A stretch of DNA of 36,474 bases. Origin: Mariprofundus sp. EBB-1 (GTDB taxonomy: Bacteria; Pseudomonadota; Zetaproteobacteria; Mariprofundales; Mariprofundaceae). Within the stretch, counting starts at the first letter, position 1; each line of letters begins with the position of its first letter. The stretch is taken from positions 1-36,474 of the forward strand of contig NZ_RCFQ01000029.1 in assembly GCF_003665155.1 (NCBI RefSeq), in the 5' to 3' direction. Positions 15,535-36,342 of this stretch are shown piece by piece. Made by a program: the position numbers and the translations under genes. The notes under the pieces were generated by a model, which saw only the letters and a list, made by a program, of their open reading frames with translations, ran no database searches and was not told where the DNA came from.

Positions 15535-16941
15535 ATGCATAAATTATTTGTCACGGTGATTGGATGTATGAGCTTGTTGGTTTCAGGCTTTGCTCAGGCA
15601 CAGATGATTCAGACCGGTGTAAGTTATCCCGGCAATTCGCAGCTGGAGCTACCCGGCTCTGGCGCTACATTCACCGTGCCATCCGGCTGGAGTGGACAGT
15701 ATAATCCTGCTGAGAAACTGTTTGAGATGTATTCGCCATCCGGGCAGCAGGTAGCTGTTGGCTATGAAGGCAAGAGTTACGCAGATGCGATTGCCTATGC
15801 CAAGCAGCCGATCACCACATCAGATGGTATTGTGATGACCCCGATGCTGAATAAATCAAAGAAGTTCAACGGTAAATTCAGTGGCGAGGCATTTCCTTAT
15901 ACCGGAAAGGCTCTAATCTTTATGGATGTGGGTGCAGTAGCTTTTGTGATTCAAACACCAAATGGCAAGGCTCTGACGTTAAGCTCCGGAGGGCTGGGCA
16001 CTAACCTTACGGCATTTTCCAATCAGATTGGCCTGGTAACCCCAAGCCTGAGTTTCACTGGCCAGAATAGAACCTATGCCAAGAGTAACCAGAGCTCATC
16101 CCAGCGATCCGGATCAGGCCTGGATATGGGTGCAATAACCGGGCAGGTACCATCGCAAAGTCGGAGCTCAAACGCGACGACAGCAAATACCAAAAGCCCT
16201 AAAATCAAACAAGCGCATAAGGTAAACAAGCCATTGGTAGTTAAAGCTGGCTCATGGGAAGGTACAGGCAAAAGATCTGTGAAATATGGTAAGGGCAATC
16301 CATTCAAAGGCTATGGCATGGGAGAACTGCCTGCCTTTATCGATCACTCTAGTTCAGGCCTTTATTTACGGAAAAATGAGTATGGGGTAAATAGTGGCTT
16401 TAGCGACGATCTCAATGTGATGATTTTTGAGCATGAAAATACGCGGGTGTTTTTCTGTGCCAAAGATCGTCAAGACAATAACTATAGGGGTAGTTATAAC
16501 GTGGAACGGAAGATCAACGGTAAATGGGAGTATGTTGGGACAGGGAATTATCAAATCTATTCCACCATGCCTCCAGCCTCATGGCCACCAAGTGACCGCA
16601 CCCTTCGTTCCCATGATATGATGATTTTAGACCGTGCGAAAGGTCCTACGGAAGCGATTAAGGTGAAAATGACCGACCAAGGCGAAGATTTCTGGTGGGA
16701 TACTCATGTCAGTTTTAACGGCATTAAATTTTCATCGGTTGGGGTCGCAGAATATTGCGGGTATGATTCATATGGAGGCGCTGAATCAGAATCATTCTTT
16801 AAAGAAAGTAGTAGAGCTCAGGCTTCCCGGAGAAGTAGTAGAGCATCATCTTCCAGCGGTTCCTATGATACTCACTTTGGCACCACCAGTAGTGGTCAGA
16901 TCATCTTCTCATCTCCGCAAGGAAGCATGTCGGTTGATTGA
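15535..16941 (+). CDS. Secreted protein with SYDTHFGTTSSG tail, paralogue A
   Basis: This 468-aa exported protein has an ideal AGGAGG six bases upstream and a Sec signal peptide ending FAQA, with cleavage before QMIQ. The N-terminal domain (about 23-175) begins with a SYPGNSQLELPGSGATFTVPSGW pattern shared with the next gene. A Ser/Asn/Gln-rich linker (about 180-225) leads to a second domain with FFCAKD and EYCGYD cysteines. A Ser/Arg-rich stretch then leads to the C-terminal tail SGSYDTHFGTTSSGQIIFSS. No known domain is recognised. Its paralogue starts 101 bp downstream, and both are probably transcribed from the promoter at operator copy 3. It is likely a surface or released protein. Confidence 0.82.
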   Translation: MHKLFVTVIGCMSLLVSGFAQAQMIQTGVSYPGNSQLELPGSGATFTVPSGWSGQYNPAEKLFEMYSPSGQQVAVGYEGKSYADAIAYAKQPITTSDGIVMTPMLNKSKKFNGKFSGEAFPYTGKALIFMDVGAVAFVIQTPNGKALTLSSGGLGTNLTAFSNQIGLVTPSLSFTGQNRTYAKSNQSSSQRSGSGLDMGAITGQVPSQSRSSNATTANTKSPKIKQAHKVNKPLVVKAGSWEGTGKRSVKYGKGNPFKGYGMGELPAFIDHSSSGLYLRKNEYGVNSGFSDDLNVMIFEHENTRVFFCAKDRQDNNYRGSYNVERKINGKWEYVGTGNYQIYSTMPPASWPPSDRTLRSHDMMILDRAKGPTEAIKVKMTDQGEDFWWDTHVSFNGIKFSSVGVAEYCGYDSYGGAESESFFKESSRAQASRRSSRASSSSGSYDTHFGTTSSGQIIFSSPQGSMSVD

Positions 16942-16979: not shown

Positions 16980-17041
16980 ATTCAATCGCAGATGGCTGTG
17001 CAGGTTGTTAAATGATGTTTAAAAATAATAAGGGGTTCATG

Positions 17042-18424
17042 ATGAAACTTATAACGTTTGTAGTTGGATGTATGAGTTTGTTTATTTCCGGTGTGGCGCA
17101 GGCTGAAACCTTGCGGCAAGGCGGCAGTTATCCGGCAGGTTCAATTGTGGAACTTTCTCAGTTTGGTGGTGCGCATTTCACCATTCCGAATGAATGGCGC
17201 GCTGAGGGGCAGGGGCCAAACCGTATTTCTCTGTTTCCTCCCATGGGTCATGCGGTACAGGTGATGGAGTTTATGCCTGTACAGAATGTTCGGACGTTTG
17301 ATCTCAATATGCAGCGCAATCAGGTACTGATTCAGCAGGCGAATACCTTTGTGAAAGCTGTGAATTATCAGGAGGCACCATCAGATGCGGGGGTGGTTTA
17401 TAATTTACAGGGCAAAAGTAACGGGCAGGAGGTGGCGGGTATGTATGTGATGCGGCCGCTATCCAACCTGGGTATGAGTTATACCAAAATGTTTATTGCT
17501 CCATCAAGTGAGTGGTTTGCAAACGACCTGCAGATGATGCAGGTGATGCGGCGTCTTGGTGAGATCGATAATGCGTTGATCGCGCAGGCTAAGGATCGTA
17601 AATCGTATGCCGGAGGATCCAATAACAGAGCTGTTGTTGCAGGTGTTCGTATGATTCAGGAGCAGACTGAAGATACTTATGCACCACCATCCTGGGTGCG
17701 TTATTCACAGGGCGATCCGTTTAAGGCTCATGGCAACAAAAAGCTGCCCAAGTTTGTGAGTCATAAAGTTCCGGGGTTGTTCTGGCAGGCATTTGCCTTG
17801 AAAGAATACAATACAAAACTCTCTAACTGGAATGAAATTATTGGTTATAACCTGGAAAATAGTAGTGGAACGAAACGTCTTAACTTTTGTCATGAAGGTG
17901 TAAAGGCGACATCTCAGGGGACTTTTACCGTCAGCACCAGAAAATCTACCCATGCAAAATGGAGACAAGTGGATAAAGGGCGATATCAGATGTTTCAGAA
18001 TCATGATCACGAATATTCAAGCGGGCCGAAAGGAGCGCTCGATACAATGTTCCTGGATCGCAGAAATGGTGACAATGATGTTGTGATGGTTGAGGAGGTT
18101 GCTGAGGATGTATACAGCAGCTATTGGTATAACAGATACGCCTTTAATGGTGAAGTATATAAGGCTCAAGGATTGAATCAGTCCTGTTCATATAAACCGA
18201 GTAAGACCTCAGTAATTCTCTCCAAATGTATGAAGAAGGGAGGCAGGAAATCGTGTTGGGGTGAAGCATTCCCGGAAGATTATGACACTGCAGGTAATGA
18301 ACGGGGCCGTTCAGGTGGATCTTCTTCCAGTAGTAGTGGTTCCTACGATACGCATTTTGGTACGACCAGTAGCGGAGCAATCATATTCTCAAGCCCAAGC
18401 GGCAGCATGTGTTCAGGTTGTTAA
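17042..18424 (+). CDS. Secreted protein with SYDTHFGTTSSG tail, paralogue B
   Basis: This 460-aa exported protein is homologous to its upstream neighbour throughout, in the same domain order. The signal peptide MKLITFVVGCMSLFISGVAQA is followed by GSYPAGSIVEL, GAHFTIPNEW, a second domain opening with FKAHGNKKLPKFVSH and carrying cysteines in LNFCHE and QSCSY, then SGSYDTHFGTTSSGAIIFSS. It ends in MCSGC, adding a terminal cysteine pair that paralogue A lacks. I prefer the ATG at 17042 because AAGGGG lies six bases upstream; in-frame ATGs at 17012 and 17039 are less well placed. There is no operator copy upstream, so it probably depends on the upstream promoter. Function unknown. Confidence 0.82.
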   Translation: MKLITFVVGCMSLFISGVAQAETLRQGGSYPAGSIVELSQFGGAHFTIPNEWRAEGQGPNRISLFPPMGHAVQVMEFMPVQNVRTFDLNMQRNQVLIQQANTFVKAVNYQEAPSDAGVVYNLQGKSNGQEVAGMYVMRPLSNLGMSYTKMFIAPSSEWFANDLQMMQVMRRLGEIDNALIAQAKDRKSYAGGSNNRAVVAGVRMIQEQTEDTYAPPSWVRYSQGDPFKAHGNKKLPKFVSHKVPGLFWQAFALKEYNTKLSNWNEIIGYNLENSSGTKRLNFCHEGVKATSQGTFTVSTRKSTHAKWRQVDKGRYQMFQNHDHEYSSGPKGALDTMFLDRRNGDNDVVMVEEVAEDVYSSYWYNRYAFNGEVYKAQGLNQSCSYKPSKTSVILSKCMKKGGRKSCWGEAFPEDYDTAGNERGRSGGSSSSSSGSYDTHFGTTSSGAIIFSSPSGSMCSGC

Positions 18425-26038: not shown

Positions 26039-26515
26039 TTACAACCTACTTTGCTGTTTACTGGCTTTGCGTCTGGCTCTGAAAAACTGTTTTAGCAGGG
26101 CGGCAGACTCCTCAGCCATGATACCACTACTGATTTCGGGTTGATGATTTAAGCGCGGATCTGACAGCAGTTGATAAAGAGATTCAACCGCTCCTGTTTT
26201 AGCGTCGGTAGCAGCATATACAACACGGGCAATGCGCGCGTGAATGATCGCACCGGCACACATGCTGCATGGCTCCAGCGTGACATACAGCGTGCTGCCA
26301 GCTAGCCGATAGTTTTGTAAAGCTTTACAGGCGCTGCGGATCACACGCATTTCAGCATGTGCAGATGTGTCATGTGTGGAGATGGGGGCATTGTGTTCGA
26401 TAAACTCAGAACCATCGGGAAATAGCAGTAGTGCACCAACAGGTACTTCACCAATTGCAGCTGCTTTTTCGGCCGCTTGCATGGCTTTATTCATATAATA
26501 TGAATCTAATGCCAT
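26039..26515 (-). CDS. tadA: tRNA-specific adenosine deaminase
   Basis: TadA deaminates A34 of tRNA-Arg(ACG) to inosine and is usually essential. The 158-aa product has the zinc-binding HAE (53-55, with catalytic Glu55) and PCSMC (82-86), with C83 and C86 as ligands. Length and motif spacing are normal. The start codon overlaps the stop of the permease gene upstream by one base, so it is translated from the transporter permease transcript. Confidence 0.96.
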   Translation of the reverse strand: MALDSYYMNKAMQAAEKAAAIGEVPVGALLLFPDGSEFIEHNAPISTHDTSAHAEMRVIRSACKALQNYRLAGSTLYVTLEPCSMCAGAIIHARIARVVYAATDAKTGAVESLYQLLSDPRLNHQPEISSGIMAEESAALLKQFFRARRKASKQQSRL

Positions 26516-27336
26516 TACTGGTTTAGCTTTGGATCGAAGTAGTCCCGCAGACCTTCTCCAAGCAGATTATAACCAAGAACGGTGATCAGAATTGCCATAC
26601 CCGGAAAGGCGGATAACCACCAGGCAATTTGAATATTATCTTTTCCTTCGGTTAAAATATTGCCCCAAGATGCATCAGGTGGTTGCACACCCAGGCCCAG
26701 GAATGATAAGCCTGATTCCAGTAGAACCGCACCTGCAATGCCGAGAATTGCCGACACAAGCACTGGCCCCATGGCATTGGGCAAGAGATAGCGCCACATC
26801 AATCGAATAGGTGAGACCCCAAGACTTTGCGCTGAGAGCACAAACTCACGCTGCGCAAGACTTAAGAACTCAGCTCTGACCAATCGTGCAATGCCCATCC
26901 AGGAGGTTAAACCAATGACAATCATGATATTCCAGATTGATGGGTCGAGAAAGGCAATCACCGCTAGAATAATAAAGAATGTAGGGAAACAGAGCACCAT
27001 ATCGGTCATACGCATCAACATAGCATCGATACGTCCACCGAAAAAACCAGCCACAGCACCCAATATAAGCCCTAGAATAAGTGAAATACCAACGGCAACA
27101 AAACCCACAGCCAGCGAAACTCTGGCTCCATAAAGCATGCGGGAAAAAATATCCCGGCCTAAAGTGTCTGTGCCACACCAGTGCTGCCATGATGGTGGCA
27201 TCAAAATTACGCTGACATCAATATTATTAGGGTCATAGGGTGCAATCCATGGCGCGAGTATTGCCAATAAAGCAATGCCGATGACTACAGAGCCTCCAAT
27301 AATCATGAGAGGAAATCGATGCATAAAAGCAGACAT
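26515..27336 (-). CDS. Peptide/nickel ABC transporter permease (OppC/DppC type)
   Basis: This 273-aa inner-membrane permease has about six transmembrane helices. The N-terminal HWCGTDTLGRDIFSRMLYGARVSL block is characteristic of DppC-type subunits, and it carries an EAA-like loop region (LVRAEFLSLAQREFVLSAQSLG). With the DppB-type permease upstream it should form the membrane channel of an importer whose ATPases are probably those at 20387-22337. It overlaps its permease partner by one base and tadA by one base, so the three genes are translationally coupled. Confidence 0.94.
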   Translation of the reverse strand: MSAFMHRFPLMIIGGSVVIGIALLAILAPWIAPYDPNNIDVSVILMPPSWQHWCGTDTLGRDIFSRMLYGARVSLAVGFVAVGISLILGLILGAVAGFFGGRIDAMLMRMTDMVLCFPTFFIILAVIAFLDPSIWNIMIVIGLTSWMGIARLVRAEFLSLAQREFVLSAQSLGVSPIRLMWRYLLPNAMGPVLVSAILGIAGAVLLESGLSFLGLGVQPPDASWGNILTEGKDNIQIAWWLSAFPGMAILITVLGYNLLGEGLRDYFDPKLNQ

Positions 27337-28322
27337 TATTTACCCCTGTTACGCATGCGAGGGTCAACCCATGCATAGGATAAATCAGCGATAAGATTGC
27401 CAAATAGTGTCAATACAGCGCCAATCACCGTGATCCCCATGACTAGCGGATAGTCCCTTGATAGCACAGATTCAAAGAATAACAGACCCATGCCGGGCAG
27501 AGAGAATAACTGCTCAACGATTACGGAGCCGCCAATAAGCCCGGGAATGGAGAGGCCGAGTAGGGTAATGATTGGCAATACAGCATTTTTAAGAGCCAAT
27601 TGATAACGTATTTTTGATTCAGGTACCCCCATGGCACGGGCTGTTGTGATATAATCAGAGCGGATCACATCCAGCATGCCGGTACGCATAAAGCGACTCA
27701 TGCCGGCAAGCCCTCCAATGGCTGATACAAATACGGGAAGAATCAAATGTTTGAGCATATCCATTTGTTGCTGCCAGAAGCCCATTTGTTGCCAGCTATA
27801 GTCATGCAAACCAGAAATGGGTAACCAGTTTAGATTCACTCCCAGACCAATCATAAGTAACAGACCAAGCCAGAAGGAGGGTATTGCAAACCCGATAAAA
27901 ACAAAAATGGTCATACCTTTATCAAACCATGAATCGCGTTTTACAGCACTGGCGACACCAATAGGTATGGCTATGATGATGATAATCAACATGGCCAACA
28001 CATTAATCCATAAAGTGACAGGCAATCTTTCTGTGATTTTATCTATAACTGCACGACCGTCCGCTGAAAACGATTGCCCAAAATCCAACACCGCCAGTCG
28101 CCCTAACCAGTTCCAGTACTGTTCATATAGTGGTTTATCCAGGCCGTAATAGGAGCGCAATCGCTCAATATCCTGTGAAGACACTTTGGGGTTAAATTCC
28201 TGTCCCACAACACTCGGTTCACCAGGAGCTAAGTGCATCATGCCAAAAGATATGATGGTAATACCGAATAACAGTGGGATCATGCCAGCAAGGCGCTTGA
28301 GAAGGTAAGAAGTCACACGCAA
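27336..28322 (-). CDS. Peptide/nickel ABC transporter permease (OppB/DppB type)
   Basis: This 328-aa permease has six transmembrane helices. The family-typical N-terminus is YLLKRLAGMIPLLFGITIISF, with DKPLYEQYWNWLGRL in the first periplasmic loop and the EAA-like loop DYITTARAMGVPESKIRY about two thirds along. It is the first gene of the minus-strand permease-permease-tadA unit. A periplasmic binding protein gene would be expected beside it but is not present; the upstream neighbours are two unrelated exported proteins on the other strand. Confidence 0.94.
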   Translation of the reverse strand: MRVTSYLLKRLAGMIPLLFGITIISFGMMHLAPGEPSVVGQEFNPKVSSQDIERLRSYYGLDKPLYEQYWNWLGRLAVLDFGQSFSADGRAVIDKITERLPVTLWINVLAMLIIIIIAIPIGVASAVKRDSWFDKGMTIFVFIGFAIPSFWLGLLLMIGLGVNLNWLPISGLHDYSWQQMGFWQQQMDMLKHLILPVFVSAIGGLAGMSRFMRTGMLDVIRSDYITTARAMGVPESKIRYQLALKNAVLPIITLLGLSIPGLIGGSVIVEQLFSLPGMGLLFFESVLSRDYPLVMGITVIGAVLTLFGNLIADLSYAWVDPRMRNRGK

Positions 28323-28501: not shown

Positions 28502-28810
28502 ATGAAAAAATATATGTTGGCATGTACACTTGCTATGGCCTTTGCGTTTTATGCACCACTGTCAATTTCTACGACTTCATTTGGCTATCAACAGGCTCAA
28601 GCTGCTGGTGCAGCTGATGCCGATACTGGTATGAAACGTGTGACACTTATCATCAAAAAATTGCGTGATGCAATGGGAAGTATGAAAGATTTTGATGAGC
28701 TTGAGAAAGCAGGCTTACAAAAAAAGGACGTTGATCGCATGCGTCGAGCAATGGATAGTAAAATTCAGCAGATGATGGAGGATGCTATCTATGCGATTCG
28801 CTCGATTTAA
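28502..28810 (+). CDS. Small exported protein, unknown function
   Basis: This 102-aa protein has a Sec-type signal peptide of about 36 residues ending QAQA before AGAAD. The mature part of about 65 residues is highly charged and mostly helical (MKRVTLIIKKLRDAMGSMKDFDELEKAG, then RMRRAMDSKIQQMMEDAIYAIRSI), probably an amphipathic helical hairpin. The ribosome-binding site is GGGGGAA. No family is recognised. Its end overlaps the next gene by 20 bp, in another frame, so the two products are likely made together in the periplasm. Confidence 0.78.
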   Translation: MKKYMLACTLAMAFAFYAPLSISTTSFGYQQAQAAGAADADTGMKRVTLIIKKLRDAMGSMKDFDELEKAGLQKKDVDRMRRAMDSKIQQMMEDAIYAIRSI

Positions 28811-29312
28811 AATAAGGGCGATTATATTACTTTCTCTGATGATTGCCTCGCCATTGATGTCAATGGCTGGTGAAATTAGAAATATTAATTTCGCAGTATT
28901 TCAGAAAGTAGATGATGATTTTGAATTTGATCCCATTGTGATGGGAAAATTTAGTGATTTTATTGCTGTGATGGATGGTGCTCAGGTGTTGCTACTTTCT
29001 CATACCAAGGATTCCGTTCATGGGGACGTGATCAGTCTACAGCAGGATGTATTACGTGAGTCTTCGGAAGGTCTGAATGATATTGGTATATCTTGTAGCC
29101 TATCCTTTTTAGAAAACAGTGAACCAGATAATTTGTCATTTGAACTCGGAGGCTTGTGTAAAATCCTTGATTCTCTGAATGAAAATATTACGGCTATTAT
29201 TCCTATGGCCGGCCTACCAGATACCGACCAGGGTGTTGAAGCCTGGGTTGAACTGCATGAAGATGAAGCTAGTGGCACAGCATTTTATGCCAATGTAAGT
29301 ACTGGCGATTAA
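28791..29312 (+). CDS. Exported acidic protein, unknown function
   Basis: This 173-aa protein has a basic N-terminus and hydrophobic signal (RFKIRAIILLSLMIASPLMSMAG), with probable cleavage before EIRNI. The mature part is acidic, with many Asp/Glu, two cysteines (ISCSLSF and GGLCKIL) that could form a disulfide, and mixed alpha/beta character. I chose the ATG at 28791 because GGAGG ends nine bases upstream; an ATG at 28782 directly touches the Shine-Dalgarno sequence. It overlaps the preceding gene by 20 bp. A strong terminator follows 25 bp after the stop, so the pair is separate from the chemosensory operon. Confidence 0.78.
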   Translation: MRFARFKIRAIILLSLMIASPLMSMAGEIRNINFAVFQKVDDDFEFDPIVMGKFSDFIAVMDGAQVLLLSHTKDSVHGDVISLQQDVLRESSEGLNDIGISCSLSFLENSEPDNLSFELGGLCKILDSLNENITAIIPMAGLPDTDQGVEAWVELHEDEASGTAFYANVSTGD

Positions 29313-29478: not shown

Positions 29479-31680
29479 ATGCACTTAAAGCATCAATTGC
29501 AGTTGATCCAATCAGGTGTGGTGACTGAGGCTCAGTTGAGCAAGGCTGAAGATCTGGCCAAAAGTGAGAAGAGAAGAATTCTTGGCGTATTGCTTGAAAT
29601 GAATGATGTGGATGCTGATGTTCTGTTGAGCACATTGTCAAAAATATACAAAACGCCATATGTCGAACTGCGCAACTGTAATGTTGATCAAGCATTGTTG
29701 GATATGTGTTCAGATAAGCTATGTCGGGATTATGAATTTGTTCCGCTAAAGCAAAATGATACTGATGTTGTAATCGCAACTGCCGATCCGCTTGATATTA
29801 ATATGCTTGATGCGCTGGGCTTTAAATTGGGCAAGCGTATCGTAACTAGGTTTACTCGTCCTGATTTGATCCATAGTAAAATTCGAGAACTTTATCAGGA
29901 TTCCGATGCTGCATTTGATTCGGTGGTAGATGATTTCGAAGATGAACATGCTTTAACACAAGAGATGTCCACCATTCAGGAAACGTCGAGTCTGGATGAA
30001 CTCAAGCGTGGGGCAGAGGATTCACCGATCATTAAATTGGTGAATGGCGTTATCATCCAAGCCATGAAAATTGGTTCATCTGATATCCATATTGAACCGG
30101 GTGAAAAGCAAAGTGTTGTACGTTTGCGCGTAGATGGACGATTAAGACCGATGATTCGTTTCCCTTCTAAAGTGCATCCTCTGGTGACTTCCAGAATCAA
30201 AATCATGTCCAAAATGGATATCTCCAATTCACGAACGCCTCAAGATGGCCGGGCACGTGTGAAATTATGGGGCAAGAGCTATGACATGCGTATTTCTACA
30301 TTGCCAGCATTGCATGGAGAAAAAGTTGTTATACGTATTCTGGATAAGGGTGGCCTGGCACTTGATCTGGATGTGTTGTGCTTTGAAGAAGTTGCTTACA
30401 AACGTATTCGTGAATGTATCAATCAGTCAACGGGTGCCGTCTTGGTTACTGGCCCTACCGGTAGTGGTAAAACAACGACCTTATATTCCTTTCTCCATCA
30501 CATTAAAAATGAGGAGATGAATCTAATCACCATTGAAGATCCTGTAGAGTTTCAGATTGATGGCATTAATCAGGTATTGGTAAACCCGAAAACCGGGATG
30601 ACCTTTGCTACCGCACTACGTTCTATTTTGCGTCAGGATCCGGATGTCGTGATGGTTGGTGAAATTCGAGATGAAGAAACAGCAGAAATTGCGCTACACG
30701 CTGCTCAAACAGGGCATTTGGTGCTTTCTACCCTGCATACCAATGATGCACCTTCGACCATTACAAGGTTACTGGATATGGGGATAGAACCAACCATGTT
30801 GGCATCATCGCTGAATCTCGTGGTTGCACAGCGTTTGGTGCGTCGATTATGCCCGAAATGCCGCAAGGAAGTTACGCCTGACCCCGATTTTATTGCGCGA
30901 CTGGATATTCCAAAAGATGTTGTTTTTTATGATAAAATTGGCTGCAAACACTGTATGAATGTTGGCTATAAGGGACGCCTGGGTATTCATGAGGTTTTGT
31001 ATGTGAATGATCAGATGCGCACACTTATTTCACGTGGTGCTACAGATCGTGAACTGATGCAGGCTGCTCGTGAAGATCATATGCTCACCTTATTTGAAGA
31101 TGGTTTATCCAAGGCCCTGGCTGGCCAGACCAGTTTGCAGGAGGTGATTCGTGCCTCAAATGTGCCAGAGGGGTATAAACTTAGTGAGCACCTGAATGCT
31201 GATCAGCAGTTAATGAGTTATGGTGAAGTTCAACGTCTTCGTGATGAAGTCAATGCTCGTGATACCGTTACAACGGAACAGAAAACAATTCTTGTTGTAG
31301 ATGATTCCAGCAGCGTTCGTAATCTGGTTGAGTTTGTACTGGATGCTGATGGTTATAAGATTTTACAAGCCGAAGACGGTCAGCAGGCTTGGGATATACT
31401 CCAGCGTATGAAACCCAATCTGGTGTTGACTGATTTTGAAATGCCGAACATGACTGGTATTGAACTACTAAGACGTATGCGTGAGCAGGCGCGTTTCAAT
31501 GATGTTCCAATTATTATGTTAACAGCGCGTAAGGATGAAGATGATGAGGTCAAAGGCTTTACTGCCGGTGCCGATGACTATATCGGCAAGCCGGTTGAGC
31601 CCTTAAAACTGCAAGCGCGGGTGAAAAAGACACTGAATCTATATGAACATATCATTGCCAGAAGTAGAGGTCCGCAGTAA
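29479..31680 (+). CDS. PilB/GspE-like ATPase fused to a response-regulator receiver domain
   Basis: This 733-aa protein combines a type II secretion / type IV pilus assembly ATPase with a C-terminal receiver domain. Residues 1-140 resemble the MshE/T2SSE N-terminal domain, which in relatives binds cyclic-di-GMP. The motor core has Walker A GPTGSGKTT (325-333), IEDPVEF (352-358), Walker B GEIRDEE (394-400), a His box LSTLHTND (416-423) and zinc ligands C458/C461 and C489/C492. The receiver domain (about 603-722) has the acidic pair D608/D609, phospho-acceptor D652, T682 and K704, so it should be phosphorylatable. GAGG lies just before the ATG. The cheW start overlaps its stop (TAATG). Confidence 0.94.
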   Translation: MHLKHQLQLIQSGVVTEAQLSKAEDLAKSEKRRILGVLLEMNDVDADVLLSTLSKIYKTPYVELRNCNVDQALLDMCSDKLCRDYEFVPLKQNDTDVVIATADPLDINMLDALGFKLGKRIVTRFTRPDLIHSKIRELYQDSDAAFDSVVDDFEDEHALTQEMSTIQETSSLDELKRGAEDSPIIKLVNGVIIQAMKIGSSDIHIEPGEKQSVVRLRVDGRLRPMIRFPSKVHPLVTSRIKIMSKMDISNSRTPQDGRARVKLWGKSYDMRISTLPALHGEKVVIRILDKGGLALDLDVLCFEEVAYKRIRECINQSTGAVLVTGPTGSGKTTTLYSFLHHIKNEEMNLITIEDPVEFQIDGINQVLVNPKTGMTFATALRSILRQDPDVVMVGEIRDEETAEIALHAAQTGHLVLSTLHTNDAPSTITRLLDMGIEPTMLASSLNLVVAQRLVRRLCPKCRKEVTPDPDFIARLDIPKDVVFYDKIGCKHCMNVGYKGRLGIHEVLYVNDQMRTLISRGATDRELMQAAREDHMLTLFEDGLSKALAGQTSLQEVIRASNVPEGYKLSEHLNADQQLMSYGEVQRLRDEVNARDTVTTEQKTILVVDDSSSVRNLVEFVLDADGYKILQAEDGQQAWDILQRMKPNLVLTDFEMPNMTGIELLRRMREQARFNDVPIIMLTARKDEDDEVKGFTAGADDYIGKPVEPLKLQARVKKTLNLYEHIIARSRGPQ

Positions 31681-32141
31681 TGCCGAATGCAAAACGCACT
31701 GTTTTGACTGGTGCTGAAAAACAACAACATCAAGGCATTGACTTGCTACTTGTCGGTATAGGCGGGAAGCAAGTGTTTGTTCGTTCATCTGAAATAAAAG
31801 AGATCTTGCGTCCAAAACCATTAACACCCGTGCCAATGGGGCCGGATCACATGATAGGTTTGGCCAATATTCATGGTCAGATTGTCTGTGTGATTGATGC
31901 AGGTAGCGTCACTTCACTGCCTCCTTGCCACAAAAAGGTTACACCACATACACGCTTTCTACTTTTGCGGCATGCCGTGATGCATGTCGGTATATGGGTA
32001 GATGAGGTATCGAAAATTCAACAAGTGGATCATAGCTTGCTTGCCATCGCAGATAATAATGGCGAAAGTATCAGTCACATCGAGGTTGAGGGAGTTAGAA
32101 GTGAATTGCTGCACTGTAACGCGTTATTGCATGAAGTTTAA
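31680..32141 (+). CDS. cheW: CheW-like adaptor
   Basis: This 153-aa scaffold would couple a transducer to CheA. The CheW core includes LLLVGIGGKQVFVRSSEIKEIL, then a PVPMGPDHMIGLANIHGQIVCVIDAG stretch that is the usual CheW surface block, and VGIWVDEVSKIQQV. The N-terminal 20 residues are extra. It begins one base inside the ATPase stop codon, so it is translationally coupled to it. It probably serves the transducer and the CheA encoded downstream. Confidence 0.92.
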   Translation: MPNAKRTVLTGAEKQQHQGIDLLLVGIGGKQVFVRSSEIKEILRPKPLTPVPMGPDHMIGLANIHGQIVCVIDAGSVTSLPPCHKKVTPHTRFLLLRHAVMHVGIWVDEVSKIQQVDHSLLAIADNNGESISHIEVEGVRSELLHCNALLHEV

Positions 32142-32186
32142 TCTGTACAAGTTTGACACTTCGATATTTAAATATTGGGGGGAGGA

Positions 32187-33623
32187 ATGAATACAAATTC
32201 TGAAATGAAACCTGTTAATCAGGTGTCACTTAAACAATTGGCAAATCGCAACTTTATATTGTCATTACTTCTTTTTGTCATGTTGATAGGCATTGTCTTT
32301 TTTGCATCAATCAGGGACAACACAAGCATGGGGGCTTTGTTGGACGTGTATGATGATCAATTCCGCGTCGGGCAGTTCAAAGGCTCTATTTCGGATGTGA
32401 TGGTTCCAATCAATGACTTTACCATGGTTCCGAACGTAAAAAACTTTGCCAAGATAAAAACATCCATTCAGGTGTTTGATGATCGATATAAAAACATTAA
32501 AACGATTGCCAGTCTTACAGATAAGAATCTTCAATCCATTGATCAGATGAATATGATGATGACAGAAGTACTAAGTATTGCGAAGGATGTTGCCGAGGAA
32601 AAAATCCCACTTAGTCAGGCATCTCAAGTTGCTATGATTGCGCAAAACCTTGTTCTTTCTGCCCAATCAAAGTTGGATGTCATTATCAAATCAATGGAAA
32701 TTGGTTTAGCACAAAAAAAGATAGAACGTGAAAAACAGGCAACCATGCAGCTGTATATTTTGCTTGGTTTTATTGTGCTGATTATTCTGTTACTGGAATT
32801 TCTTAACAGAAAACTATTGGCACATGCACAAGTTGTTTCTAAAGCTTCAAGCAATGTTGTGGAGAGTGCTGGAGATATTGTTGAAGCCAATCGCGTGCAG
32901 GCAAGTATCACAGAGCAACAGTCCAAGTTTATGGATAAAGTCATTAAAGGACTTGAATTTATCACCATTTCAGGGTCAAAAATTCCTATAGCAACGACTA
33001 AACTGGAAAAAAACTCTTCTGTCATATCTTCATTTGCAAGGGGTGGCGTGAAAGAAATTAATGAGGCACTTACTGTCATTAATCAGGTGCGTGGAAGCGT
33101 TTCAACGATGACTGCCAATAGTGAACATATCAGTGACAAAGCCAATCAGGTACTTCAATCCATTGAGCAGATTCAGGACGTAGCAGACGAGGCCAATTTA
33201 CTTGCCTTAAATGCATCAATCGATGGCGGATCATCTATGACACATGATGTGCAGCGCATGGCTGAACAGATTCGTGGTTACGCAAATGAGATCCGTGCTT
33301 CAATAGAAGGCGTTACCAGTGCATCAGGAAGTGTTGAGAAAACAACAACTGAAAGCATTACGATTCTCGATAAGAATGTAGAGGTCATTAAGAGCACATC
33401 AGATATGTTAAATAGAATTGAAACCTTGTCTGCAACCAATGGACAATCCTCTGCAGTGATCGTGAAGGCAATTCAACTTCAAAATGAACGCAATAAGAAA
33501 ATTTTGCATGTGTTGAAACATATATCACAGCTGTTGCATAGCTCAGATGATAAATTACAGGCTTACCATGAAGCATCGTCACGTTTGACTGAAGCTTCAG
33601 AAAGCCTGAAAAATATGAGCTAA
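32187..33623 (+). CDS. Methyl-accepting-like transducer with degenerate signalling tip
   Basis: This 478-aa protein has transducer topology: a short cytoplasmic start, TM1 (23-42), a periplasmic or outside domain of about 145 residues, TM2 (188-204) and a long helical cytoplasmic coiled coil. The tip keeps ANLLALNAS (336-344) but then diverges. The conserved EAARAGE-x-GRG block is replaced by DGGSSMTHD, about two residues shorter, and the conserved Glu/Arg contacts are absent. No clear HAMP domain follows TM2. It may be a CheA-coupled receptor that signals differently. The ATG at 32187 follows GGAGGA almost without spacing. No cheR or cheB is nearby. Confidence 0.85.
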   Translation: MNTNSEMKPVNQVSLKQLANRNFILSLLLFVMLIGIVFFASIRDNTSMGALLDVYDDQFRVGQFKGSISDVMVPINDFTMVPNVKNFAKIKTSIQVFDDRYKNIKTIASLTDKNLQSIDQMNMMMTEVLSIAKDVAEEKIPLSQASQVAMIAQNLVLSAQSKLDVIIKSMEIGLAQKKIEREKQATMQLYILLGFIVLIILLLEFLNRKLLAHAQVVSKASSNVVESAGDIVEANRVQASITEQQSKFMDKVIKGLEFITISGSKIPIATTKLEKNSSVISSFARGGVKEINEALTVINQVRGSVSTMTANSEHISDKANQVLQSIEQIQDVADEANLLALNASIDGGSSMTHDVQRMAEQIRGYANEIRASIEGVTSASGSVEKTTTESITILDKNVEVIKSTSDMLNRIETLSATNGQSSAVIVKAIQLQNERNKKILHVLKHISQLLHSSDDKLQAYHEASSRLTEASESLKNMS

Positions 33624-33633
33624 TCACTGATTG

Positions 33634-36126
33634 ATGAGCAAATTTGATATGAGCGGCTTTCTGGCCGGTTTTTTTGATGAAGCGAGAGGGCGTTTACTAA
33701 CGATTCATCAAAAAATTCTATTGCTTGAAGGGGGCAATCTGGATGAGGCTGGTTTAATCCAGCTGCGCAGAAATGTACATACAATCAAAGGTTCGGCGCA
33801 AATGTTGGGTGTTCAGGATATCGCAGATCTGTGTCATCTTTTCGAAGATGCATTGGAACTTATTTCTATTGATGCGCATATTGATGCCTTACCGCTGATT
33901 CAATTTCTATTGGATTTGCTCGATGCATTACAATCCAGAATAGAATATCAGGATGCTGAGGTTCGTCTGGACATCTCATTGAAACAGATACGCTTTGCAC
34001 AAATAAAACAAGAGTTAAATAAATATCCGGACGCAATAAAAACGACCACCAAATCCAATCACGAACTGAAAGCGGAAGACGTAAATCATCAAGTGGAAGC
34101 AAAGCAAGTTGAGAAGGATGCGCTTTCAAATACTGTTGAACAGACCACATTAGGTGAGAAGTTACCGAAAAAGAGGCGTCGAAAAAAGAAAACAAAAGTT
34201 GCTCAGAATCTTATTGCTGCGGTGATGGGAAGCATTGAAGTCTCGCTTGATAATAAAAGTGATGTTGGCGCGTCGGAGCCCGATACGTCGGCTGAACCGG
34301 TATCAGAGATAGTTGAACCGGATACGCAAATAGAAGACGTGCCAGTTCTGAAATTCCGTACTGATGAAGCTACTTTTAAGGCGAGTAGCACATCCAGTGA
34401 AACAGTAAGCAATTTCCTGCGTGTTGACCGTGGGCGACTGAATCAGCTATCGAATCAAATCCTGGAGTTGGCATCTATTCGTTACCGGGAGGATTCAATC
34501 GAATCACAGTTACAAAGTCTCGCCCGTGATTTTCGAAAAATGAAAGAAAAAAAGATGTCCAATGATGTTCACCCTTCAATATTGTTGGCTTCAATGCAAA
34601 CAGATATGGATCGTCATTTACGCCAACTTCAACAGCTAAGTGCTGCGTTATATCAACAGCAAAATAGCTCATCTTCCACATTGGATGGGGTGCGAGATCA
34701 AGTGTTAGGGCTAGTACTTAGTCCATTAAGTAGTGTGTTTTCAGTATTTCCACGCACTGTTCGCGATCTTTCTCTGCGCAGTGGGAAGTCCGTTAAATTA
34801 TTGATCATGGGTGATTCTATTGAAATGGATCAGATTGCAGCTGAATCACTGACTGAACCACTCATCCATTTAATGAATAATGCCATTGCTCATGGCATAG
34901 AAGACCCGGAAGAGCGGCTGCGTCGTGGCAAACCTGAAGATGGTCAGATCACCATATCTGCCAGGCAAGAGGGTAAAATTATCCATCTTGATGTTACTGA
35001 TGATGGCAATGGAATGGATGTAGATATCATCAGGGAAAAAGCAGTTGCCCAAAAAATCATCAACCAATCAGAAGCTGATGATATGGATGAGTCTGAATTG
35101 ATTGAGCTTATTTTTCACCCTGGTTTTACAACATTTGAATCAGTCAGTGAACTTGCTGGCCGTGGTATGGGCATGTCCATTGTCCTCGATGTGATGCGTG
35201 AATTAACCGGTAATATTCATATTCATAGTCAAAAAGGGAAGGGGACTCGCTTTAGCATGACATTCCCTGTAAGTCTGACTGTTCAAACAGCCAAGCTTTT
35301 CCGAATAGGTAGCCAGCGTTTTGCGATGATTGCCAATTTAGTAGTTCAGGCAATGCCCTTAAAAGGCCAGAAGATTAAAACGGGATCAGGACTATTTAGT
35401 AAAGGATATATTACATTTGAAGAACACCGTGTTCCTGTTATTGATCTGCGCGATGCCTTAGGTGGTAACAAAACTGTAGAAGTAGCCGATGAAGCTCAGA
35501 TTCTAGTTGTAGAACATTTAGAAGGTTATCTGGCGATCGTTGTTGATGAAGTGTTGGCAGTTGCTGAAATCATGATTCGTGAAGTAGATCCATATTTAAA
35601 ACATTATAAACCAGTTGGTCTGATCGGATGCACTATCCTGAATGACGGAACGGTGCATTTAATCATCGAGCCGATTGGCCTAAGAGAGATGTGGCGCACT
35701 GCTCCGGATGTCGGTGTGGTTCAAGAGAGCAACAACAATGACAAGCCTACATTCAATCAACATATTTTGCTTGTTGATGACTCCAGTGTCGCACTCAACA
35801 TTGAGAAAAAGATGTTTGAGAAGATGGGCTTTACGGTAGATACAGCGATGGGCGGGGCTGATGCCCTTGAGCAGGTTGCTCTAAATAATTATGATCTCAT
35901 AGTCACAGACCTTGAAATGCCTGATATTGATGGCATTTCAATCATCAAACAACTCCGCAGTGATGTAAAATATGAAACATTACCTATCATCATTATTGCA
36001 ACACGCGCAATAGAGGATGAACGTGAGCGTGCCACGAAAGCAGGTGCAAACGCATACCTTTCCAAACGTCAGCTTAAAGGTGGAGAAGCTGAATTATCAG
36101 CAGTCTTAGCTAACATTTTCGCGTAA
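33634..36126 (+). CDS. cheA: CheA-type histidine kinase with C-terminal receiver domain
   Basis: This 830-aa hybrid kinase has an Hpt domain (1-105) with the phospho-accepting His49 in HTIKGSA. A long linker contains a very basic KKRRRKKKTK patch. Dimerisation and ATPase domains follow, with N box NNAIAHGIEDP, DDGNGMD and GRGMGMS. Next are a CheW-like P5 domain (about 545-690) and a receiver domain (about 705-825) with the acidic pair VDDSS, acceptor Asp in LIVTDLEMPDIDG, and ATR. The single Hpt plus receiver layout resembles hybrid CheA proteins of gliding or twitching systems. The ATG at 33634 lacks a strong Shine-Dalgarno sequence. Confidence 0.93.
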   Translation: MSKFDMSGFLAGFFDEARGRLLTIHQKILLLEGGNLDEAGLIQLRRNVHTIKGSAQMLGVQDIADLCHLFEDALELISIDAHIDALPLIQFLLDLLDALQSRIEYQDAEVRLDISLKQIRFAQIKQELNKYPDAIKTTTKSNHELKAEDVNHQVEAKQVEKDALSNTVEQTTLGEKLPKKRRRKKKTKVAQNLIAAVMGSIEVSLDNKSDVGASEPDTSAEPVSEIVEPDTQIEDVPVLKFRTDEATFKASSTSSETVSNFLRVDRGRLNQLSNQILELASIRYREDSIESQLQSLARDFRKMKEKKMSNDVHPSILLASMQTDMDRHLRQLQQLSAALYQQQNSSSSTLDGVRDQVLGLVLSPLSSVFSVFPRTVRDLSLRSGKSVKLLIMGDSIEMDQIAAESLTEPLIHLMNNAIAHGIEDPEERLRRGKPEDGQITISARQEGKIIHLDVTDDGNGMDVDIIREKAVAQKIINQSEADDMDESELIELIFHPGFTTFESVSELAGRGMGMSIVLDVMRELTGNIHIHSQKGKGTRFSMTFPVSLTVQTAKLFRIGSQRFAMIANLVVQAMPLKGQKIKTGSGLFSKGYITFEEHRVPVIDLRDALGGNKTVEVADEAQILVVEHLEGYLAIVVDEVLAVAEIMIREVDPYLKHYKPVGLIGCTILNDGTVHLIIEPIGLREMWRTAPDVGVVQESNNNDKPTFNQHILLVDDSSVALNIEKKMFEKMGFTVDTAMGGADALEQVALNNYDLIVTDLEMPDIDGISIIKQLRSDVKYETLPIIIIATRAIEDERERATKAGANAYLSKRQLKGGEAELSAVLANIFA

Positions 36127-36225: not shown

Positions 36226-36342
36226 ATGGTTATTGAAATGAATGAACCAGAACTTATAGATGATATGCAGACCAAAGTAGAGATCATCGCAATTGTGGCA
36301 ATGGTCGTTGGTGTTTTGGGGTTTACAACCTCCATTTTTTAA
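36226..36342 (+). CDS. 38-residue single-helix membrane protein
   Basis: This very small gene has a perfect AGGAGG (36215-36220) five bases before the ATG. It encodes 38 aa: an acidic N-terminal half (MVIEMNEPELIDDMQTK) and a C-terminal transmembrane helix (VEIIAIVAMVVGVLGFTTSIF). Such tail-anchored mini-proteins often modulate a larger membrane complex. It lies 99 bp after the CheA-type gene on the same strand, so it may belong to the chemosensory unit or be separate. No family is recognised. Confidence 0.68.
   Translation: MVIEMNEPELIDDMQTKVEIIAIVAMVVGVLGFTTSIF

Follow-up and report, generated by a model that had tools for sequence, protein, structure and literature searches.

A PilB-type pilus motor with a C-terminal receiver domain in a chemosensory operon of Mariprofundus sp. 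EBB-1 and its relatives

Can a chemosensory kinase address the motor of a type IV pilus without a separate protein to carry the message? The question is raised by a locus of Mariprofundus sp. strain EBB-1, a marine iron oxidiser of the class Zetaproteobacteria that was obtained from a pyrrhotite biofilm (PMC6763651). The DNA analysed here (the window, 36,474 nucleotides) is contig 22 of the EBB-1 assembly, which comprises 2,877,040 bases in 63 contigs and is 99.5% complete. The original prediction, made from the letters of the window, described four genes in a row: an assembly ATPase ending in a complete receiver domain, a cheW translationally coupled to it, a transducer, and a cheA whose product has a receiver of its own. 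Open reading frames and Pfam domains bore out this description in each part (Table 1). We found that EBB-1 and most of its class possess an additional type IV pilus motor, here called PilB-REC, to whose C-terminus a receiver is fused, and a sensory system may thus act on the pilus machine directly, bypassing a messenger protein.

Table 1. Position and content of the pilB-REC operon and of the domains of PilB-REC in the window
Feature	Position	Strand	Description
pilB-REC	29479..31680	+	PilB-type assembly ATPase with C-terminal receiver, 733 aa
MshEN-type N-terminal domain of PilB-REC	29647..29910	+	residues 57-144, Pfam 67.5 bits
T2SSE motor domain of PilB-REC	30013..31152	+	residues 179-558, Pfam 462 bits
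Predicted helical linker of PilB-REC	31219..31272	+	residues 581-598, sequence poorly conserved
Receiver domain of PilB-REC	31288..31623	+	residues 604-715, Response_reg 111.5 bits, 3e-32
cheW-like adaptor	31680..32141	+	CheW 66 bits; start overlaps pilB-REC stop
Transmembrane transducer (MCP-like)	32187..33623	+	shortened hairpin tip (NASIDGG-SSMT), consensus methylation motif absent
CheA-type kinase	33634..36126	+	one Hpt (H50), N/G1/F/G2 ATPase boxes, CheW-like, C-terminal receiver

Both halves of PilB-REC retained their catalytic residues. In the T2SSE domain Walker A (GPTGSGKT, K331), Walker B (E395), the Asp and His boxes and the CxxC pairs were conserved; the Walker A lysine and the Walker B glutamate were invariant in 24 of 24 orthologs, and the His box and CxxC pairs did not vary across orthologs either. 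The receiver contained all that is expected of the CheY type, namely the DD pair (D608/D609), the phospho-acceptor aspartate (D652), the T/S position (T682) and the lysine (K704), and these five residues were all kept in 22 of the 24 orthologs. Their retention speaks against a phosphorylation-independent role of the receiver in dimerisation or localisation, a reading that we regard as very improbable, even though receivers of that sort exist and the one in FimX lacks its aspartate yet affects localisation (PMC11656802). An AlphaFold model of PilB-REC (pLDDT 77, pTM 0.54) supported a folded motor and a folded receiver with helix 581-598 between them, their mutual placement being unreliable. The c-di-GMP motif NF053729 did not appear in the list of 25 families for PilB-REC, and by eye its consensus residues seem altered. 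A different MshEN-T2SSE ATPase of the genome, 809 aa long and located on contig 12 (L076:9264-11693), had four matches to this motif, and its relatives in G008, G037 and G041 grouped with it in the tree described below.

pilB-REC ends in TAA and cheW begins with ATG, the two codons overlapping by a single base (TAATG). The probable start of the transducer is the ATG at 32187 (after GGGGGGAGGA) and that of CheA the ATG at 33634, each slightly inside the listed open reading frame. By Pfam, CheA consists of Hpt, HATPase_c, CheW and Response_reg domains, and no H-kinase_dim match was reported in it. The Hpt histidine, the N, G1, F and G2 boxes and the receiver aspartates were intact across orthologs where covered, and the number of Hpt domains was one in the CheA of the window and two in some relatives, such as G034. 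The only receivers encoded within the operon were those of PilB-REC and CheA, and no stand-alone receiver was seen in it or in the operon frames of relatives. Directly after cheA lies a frame for a 38-aa single-helix peptide (36226-36342); G006 has the same peptide unchanged, and the version in G012 is 46% identical. Upstream of pilB-REC, two overlapping small genes on the forward strand (28502-28810 and 28782-29312) encode products with signal-like N-termini and no Pfam match; the pair was conserved in the genus only, with the second gene duplicated in G003 and G002 (L058, L061). Elsewhere in the window, two adjacent genes (15535-16941 and 17012-18424) encode secreted proteins of about 470 aa with near-identical tails (GSYDTHFGTTSSGxIIFSSPxGSM).

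The ancestry of the ATPase was examined with a maximum-likelihood tree of motor domains. PilB-REC formed a clade of its own (100/99) whose sister was canonical PilB (95/85); GspE fell elsewhere in the tree, and two further MshEN ATPases of the genome were likewise separate from the clade. Assignment of the motor to GspE, considered for its higher pairwise core identity to GspE, was rejected on this position beside PilB. Against the PilB equivalog TIGR02538, PilB-REC scored 606 bits, under the curated cut-off of 675.65. The original prediction had asked for another pilB lacking a receiver, and one was indeed present on contig 9: its product scored 749 bits to TIGR02538, and its neighbours, named by eye from open reading frames, are PilC-, PilS/PilR- and PilD-like genes. 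No pilC, pilD or pilin genes adjoined pilB-REC, where the operon held only cheW, mcp and cheA. PilB-REC thus shares with canonical PilB the MshEN and T2SSE domains, the catalytic residues and a place in sister clades, but differs in its C-terminal receiver, its score below the equivalog cut-off and its orphan locus without pilC and pilD. Because of the sister clade, the sub-cut-off score and the genome's own PilB elsewhere, PilB-REC is, as judged from sequence, an ancient and separately maintained PilB paralog with no pilus genes around it.

A profile search recovered the fusion from 54 of the order's 78 genomes, including 27 of the 39 better genomes. Full-length copies occurred across the genus, in other genera of the family, in G037, which represents a second family of the order, and in G041, the sole genome of another class in the compared set; the fusion is therefore no assembly accident. 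Among an even draw of 398 Pseudomonadota it occurred only in this order and in G041, two other listed matches being receiver-only; the roughly 320 further Pseudomonadota sampled lacked it. A DNA-pattern scan of named genomes with the C-terminal alignment gave only generic receivers among the matches listed, and 40 genomes of mixed phyla, taken from that scan and searched whole, yielded no match covering motor and receiver. Wherever the contig permitted a check, cheW, mcp and cheA followed pilB-REC in the same order, with few losses. The survey for the same four genes elsewhere, which the original prediction had suggested, found their order kept in the genus, the family, the order and G041, whose operon contains an additional CheW-like gene. 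Outside the genus the operon was flanked, even in another class, by a LysM-transglycosylase gene and a gene for an SBP_bac_5 peptide-binding protein (L070:8492-13640, L063, L064, L066, L068, L083, L085), to which G041 adds YejB/YejE-like permeases; in the window only permeases are left beside the operon (26515-28322). The receptor could have this peptide-binding protein as a partner.

Within the genus, the receiver of PilB-REC was 76-90% identical, close to the 82-89% of the motor core, while the linker fell to 44-60%, CheW to 43-58%, the transducer to 44-57%, CheA to 47-58% and CheA's own receiver to 51-68%. That the receiver is conserved nearly as well as the motor core, with the other parts of the operon diverging faster, points to strong selection on it. 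One genome, G033, encodes a 503-aa PilB-REC (L083:1906-3417) with an in-frame loss of about residues 291-603, the ATPase domain, in an otherwise intact operon. The persistence there of N-domain, receiver and operon would suit a regulatory subunit, which mixes into hexamers of canonical PilB or competes with it for the platform protein, and whose effect is relieved or imposed when CheA phosphorylates it. The canonical PilB of the same genome, beside pilC and pilD (749 bits), and the want of pilC or pilin genes next to PilB-REC fit this reading as well. We nevertheless consider it unlikely: G033 is one draft genome, and the invariant Walker lysine and glutamate in 24 of 24 orthologs, in a core that is the best conserved part, are as in a working ATPase.

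How closely is the motor tied to this kinase? By our own reading of searches and neighbourhoods in 41 genomes of the order, 22 carried motor and kinase, 3 the motor only, 2 the kinase only and 14 neither (Fisher p 2e-6; 2e-7 in the 30 better genomes; relatedness uncorrected). In G013 and G022 the PilB-REC receiver was intact but the kinase operon was missing, and in G013 a 3' fragment of cheA encoding its receiver was left about 68 bases downstream of pilB-REC, a remnant that indicates deletion. G005, on a short contig, had PilB-REC with no match to a kinase ortholog and a degenerate receiver (D609R, T682S). Conversely, G034 and G036 had cheW-mcp-cheA without PilB-REC. Since the motor occurred without an identifiable kinase in G013, G022 and G005, and the reverse in G034 and G036, the link is not obligatory. 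Moreover, about eight stand-alone receivers were found elsewhere in the EBB-1 genome and are possible partners in phosphotransfer. The chief target of the operon CheA might accordingly be its own receiver or a stand-alone protein of CheY type encoded elsewhere, with another kinase phosphorylating PilB-REC; the separate occurrence in 5 of the 41 genomes and a PilB receiver much better conserved than the CheA proteins lean the same way. Translational coupling, strong co-occurrence and a gene order kept into another class weigh against such a division of labour, which we hold to be quite unlikely. The genome had only two CheA genes, the other one lying in a CheY/CheB/CheR cluster, and no Pil-Chp-type kinase elsewhere.

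The receptor of the operon was unusual. The transducer tip was canonical (NASIESAAAGEFGKRFAVVA) in other genera, and up to about nine residues of it were lost in the Mariprofundus genus, so that the window encodes a chemoreceptor without the highly conserved hairpin tip (32187-33623), a deletion common to the genus orthologs. A consensus methylation motif was not found in the MCP of the window; one was present in the MCP on contig 2, which served as control, and also in some sister genera. The loss of the tip together with the absence of consensus methylation sites suggests that signalling by the genus receptor is altered or methylation-independent, and given the nine-residue deletion its control of CheA may be altered. 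The score of the transducer to Pfam MCPsignal was 27.8 bits, under the cut-off of 34.6, compared with 102 bits in a sister genus. This low score, the deletion of nine tip residues and the loss of the operon in G013, where the cheA remnant was left, could mean that the pathway is decaying or constitutive in the genus, its kinase-control tip gone and its CheA no longer following a stimulus. Such decay is highly doubtful, however, with CheA frames open and catalytic residues intact in most genomes of the genus, and species whose operons are otherwise intact have the tip deletion in common, suggesting a functional variant passed on by descent.

The original prediction had noted the absence of cheR, cheB and a stand-alone cheY, and had taken it to suggest a pathway without classical methylation adaptation. 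The absence held for the window, and no cheR or cheB methylesterase gene lay near about 22 orthologous operons, where CheB matches were receiver-only; it failed for the genome. Contig 2 encodes CheY (124 aa), CheA-REC, CheW, CheB, CheR and a CZB-domain MCP; a second CheB is encoded on contig 7 and a CheB-CheR fusion on contig 1. With CheR and CheB on these three contigs, the claim is limited to the operon. A full CheY/CheB/CheR set, which would have spoken against the prediction had it been dedicated to this kinase, exists but is linked to the other CheA on contig 2. As to adaptation, the genus receptor without consensus sites fits what was proposed, whereas the CheR and CheB of the genome do not; judged by these sequences, their cross-action on the operon receptor is unlikely. 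The features of classical adapting chemotaxis were accordingly split, with CheR and CheB in the genome, and neither cheR/cheB in the cluster nor methylation sites on the receptor.

We then compared the operon with known systems. Like the Pil-Chp system of P. aeruginosa (PilG/PilH/PilI/PilJ/ChpA), it combines CheW, MCP and a CheA with a receiver. Unlike Pil-Chp, it has a receiver within the motor, no separate PilG or PilH, no CheR or CheB, and a single Hpt in the window CheA in place of multiple Hpt/Spt domains. The Wsp system offers a parallel in layout, in that WspE is a CheA with a C-terminal receiver and the output receiver of WspR is fused directly to its effector; that effector is a diguanylate cyclase, and Wsp has its own CheR and CheB, unlike the present operon. 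Pil-Chp acts on type IV pili through the separate receivers PilG and PilH, with an output that includes polar recruitment of PilB, and direct links between PilG and PilB have not been rigorously identified (PMC10519157). PixG, a PATAN receiver of Synechocystis, interacts with both PilC and PilB1 (PMC12288463; PMC10519157). PixG and other PATAN-REC regulators resemble the operon in their chemotaxis-type kinase and in a receiver acting directly on the extension motor PilB1, but PixG binds as a separate protein, whereas PilB-REC is a covalent fusion without a PATAN domain. In a 2024 review on the control of PilB, FimX is the only protein for which a REC domain is mentioned (PMC11656802), and our literature search, which covered few subscription papers, turned up no PilB described as having a receiver at its C-terminus. 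The function thus resembles Pil-Chp and PixG signalling, and the architecture is new in that the motor itself contains the output receiver.

Taken together, we think it fairly probable that CheA phosphorylates PilB-REC directly, and that the four genes make up a self-contained chemosensory pathway ending at an auxiliary motor for type IV pilus extension. The proposal builds on the domains, catalytic residues, operon, conservation and PilB-type motor ancestry read from the DNA; phosphotransfer, the direction of its effect, the pilus served and the signal sensed are what we infer. Transducer and CheW would control autophosphorylation of CheA at H50 of the Hpt domain, and the phosphate would pass to D652 in the PilB-REC receiver. 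Phosphorylated PilB-REC would then change in activity or in recruitment to the pilus platform, and so alter pilus extension alongside canonical PilB. By analogy with Pseudomonas ChpA-REC, which shows sink-like kinetics (PMC10519157), the receiver on CheA itself would most likely serve as a sink, competing for phosphate and resetting the signal. Direct phosphorylation of the motor is supported by the TAATG overlap, the conserved gene order, the co-occurrence, the presence of only two CheA genes and the 22 of 24 intact receivers, together with the degenerate receiver of G005, the genome without a kinase match. Counted against it are the uncoupled genomes (G013, G022, G034, G036), the missing ATPase domain of G033, the eight or so other receivers, the tip deletion, the sub-cut-off PilB score and the lack of an adjoining pilC. 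More tentatively, and with somewhat less belief than doubt, we propose that this motor-dedicated phospho-receiver array is ancestral in the Zetaproteobacteria, and that the Mariprofundus receptor has come to do without the kinase-control tip and without methylation-based adaptation.

On the way from chemosensory kinase to pilus motor, the steps between PilG and PilB have not been rigorously traced in Pseudomonas, and in cyanobacteria a separate PATAN receiver binds PilB1. Here the receiver is covalently joined to the motor; four proteins would therefore suffice to reconstitute the path from receptor to machine, and the effect of phosphorylation could be examined on the motor itself. We did not adopt a link between the operon and stalk formation, since G030, the putative stalk-less Ghiorsea bivora TAG-1, has the operon. 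Two complete one-contig genomes of the genus, which fit the pelagic isolates M. aestuarium CP-5 (G011) and M. ferrinatatus CP-8 (G008; PMC8250860), were without the PilB-REC system, whereas EBB-1, from a mineral biofilm, has it; this is a correlation of small number. The PilB-REC operon is a candidate for the means by which iron-oxidising bacteria position themselves on surfaces.
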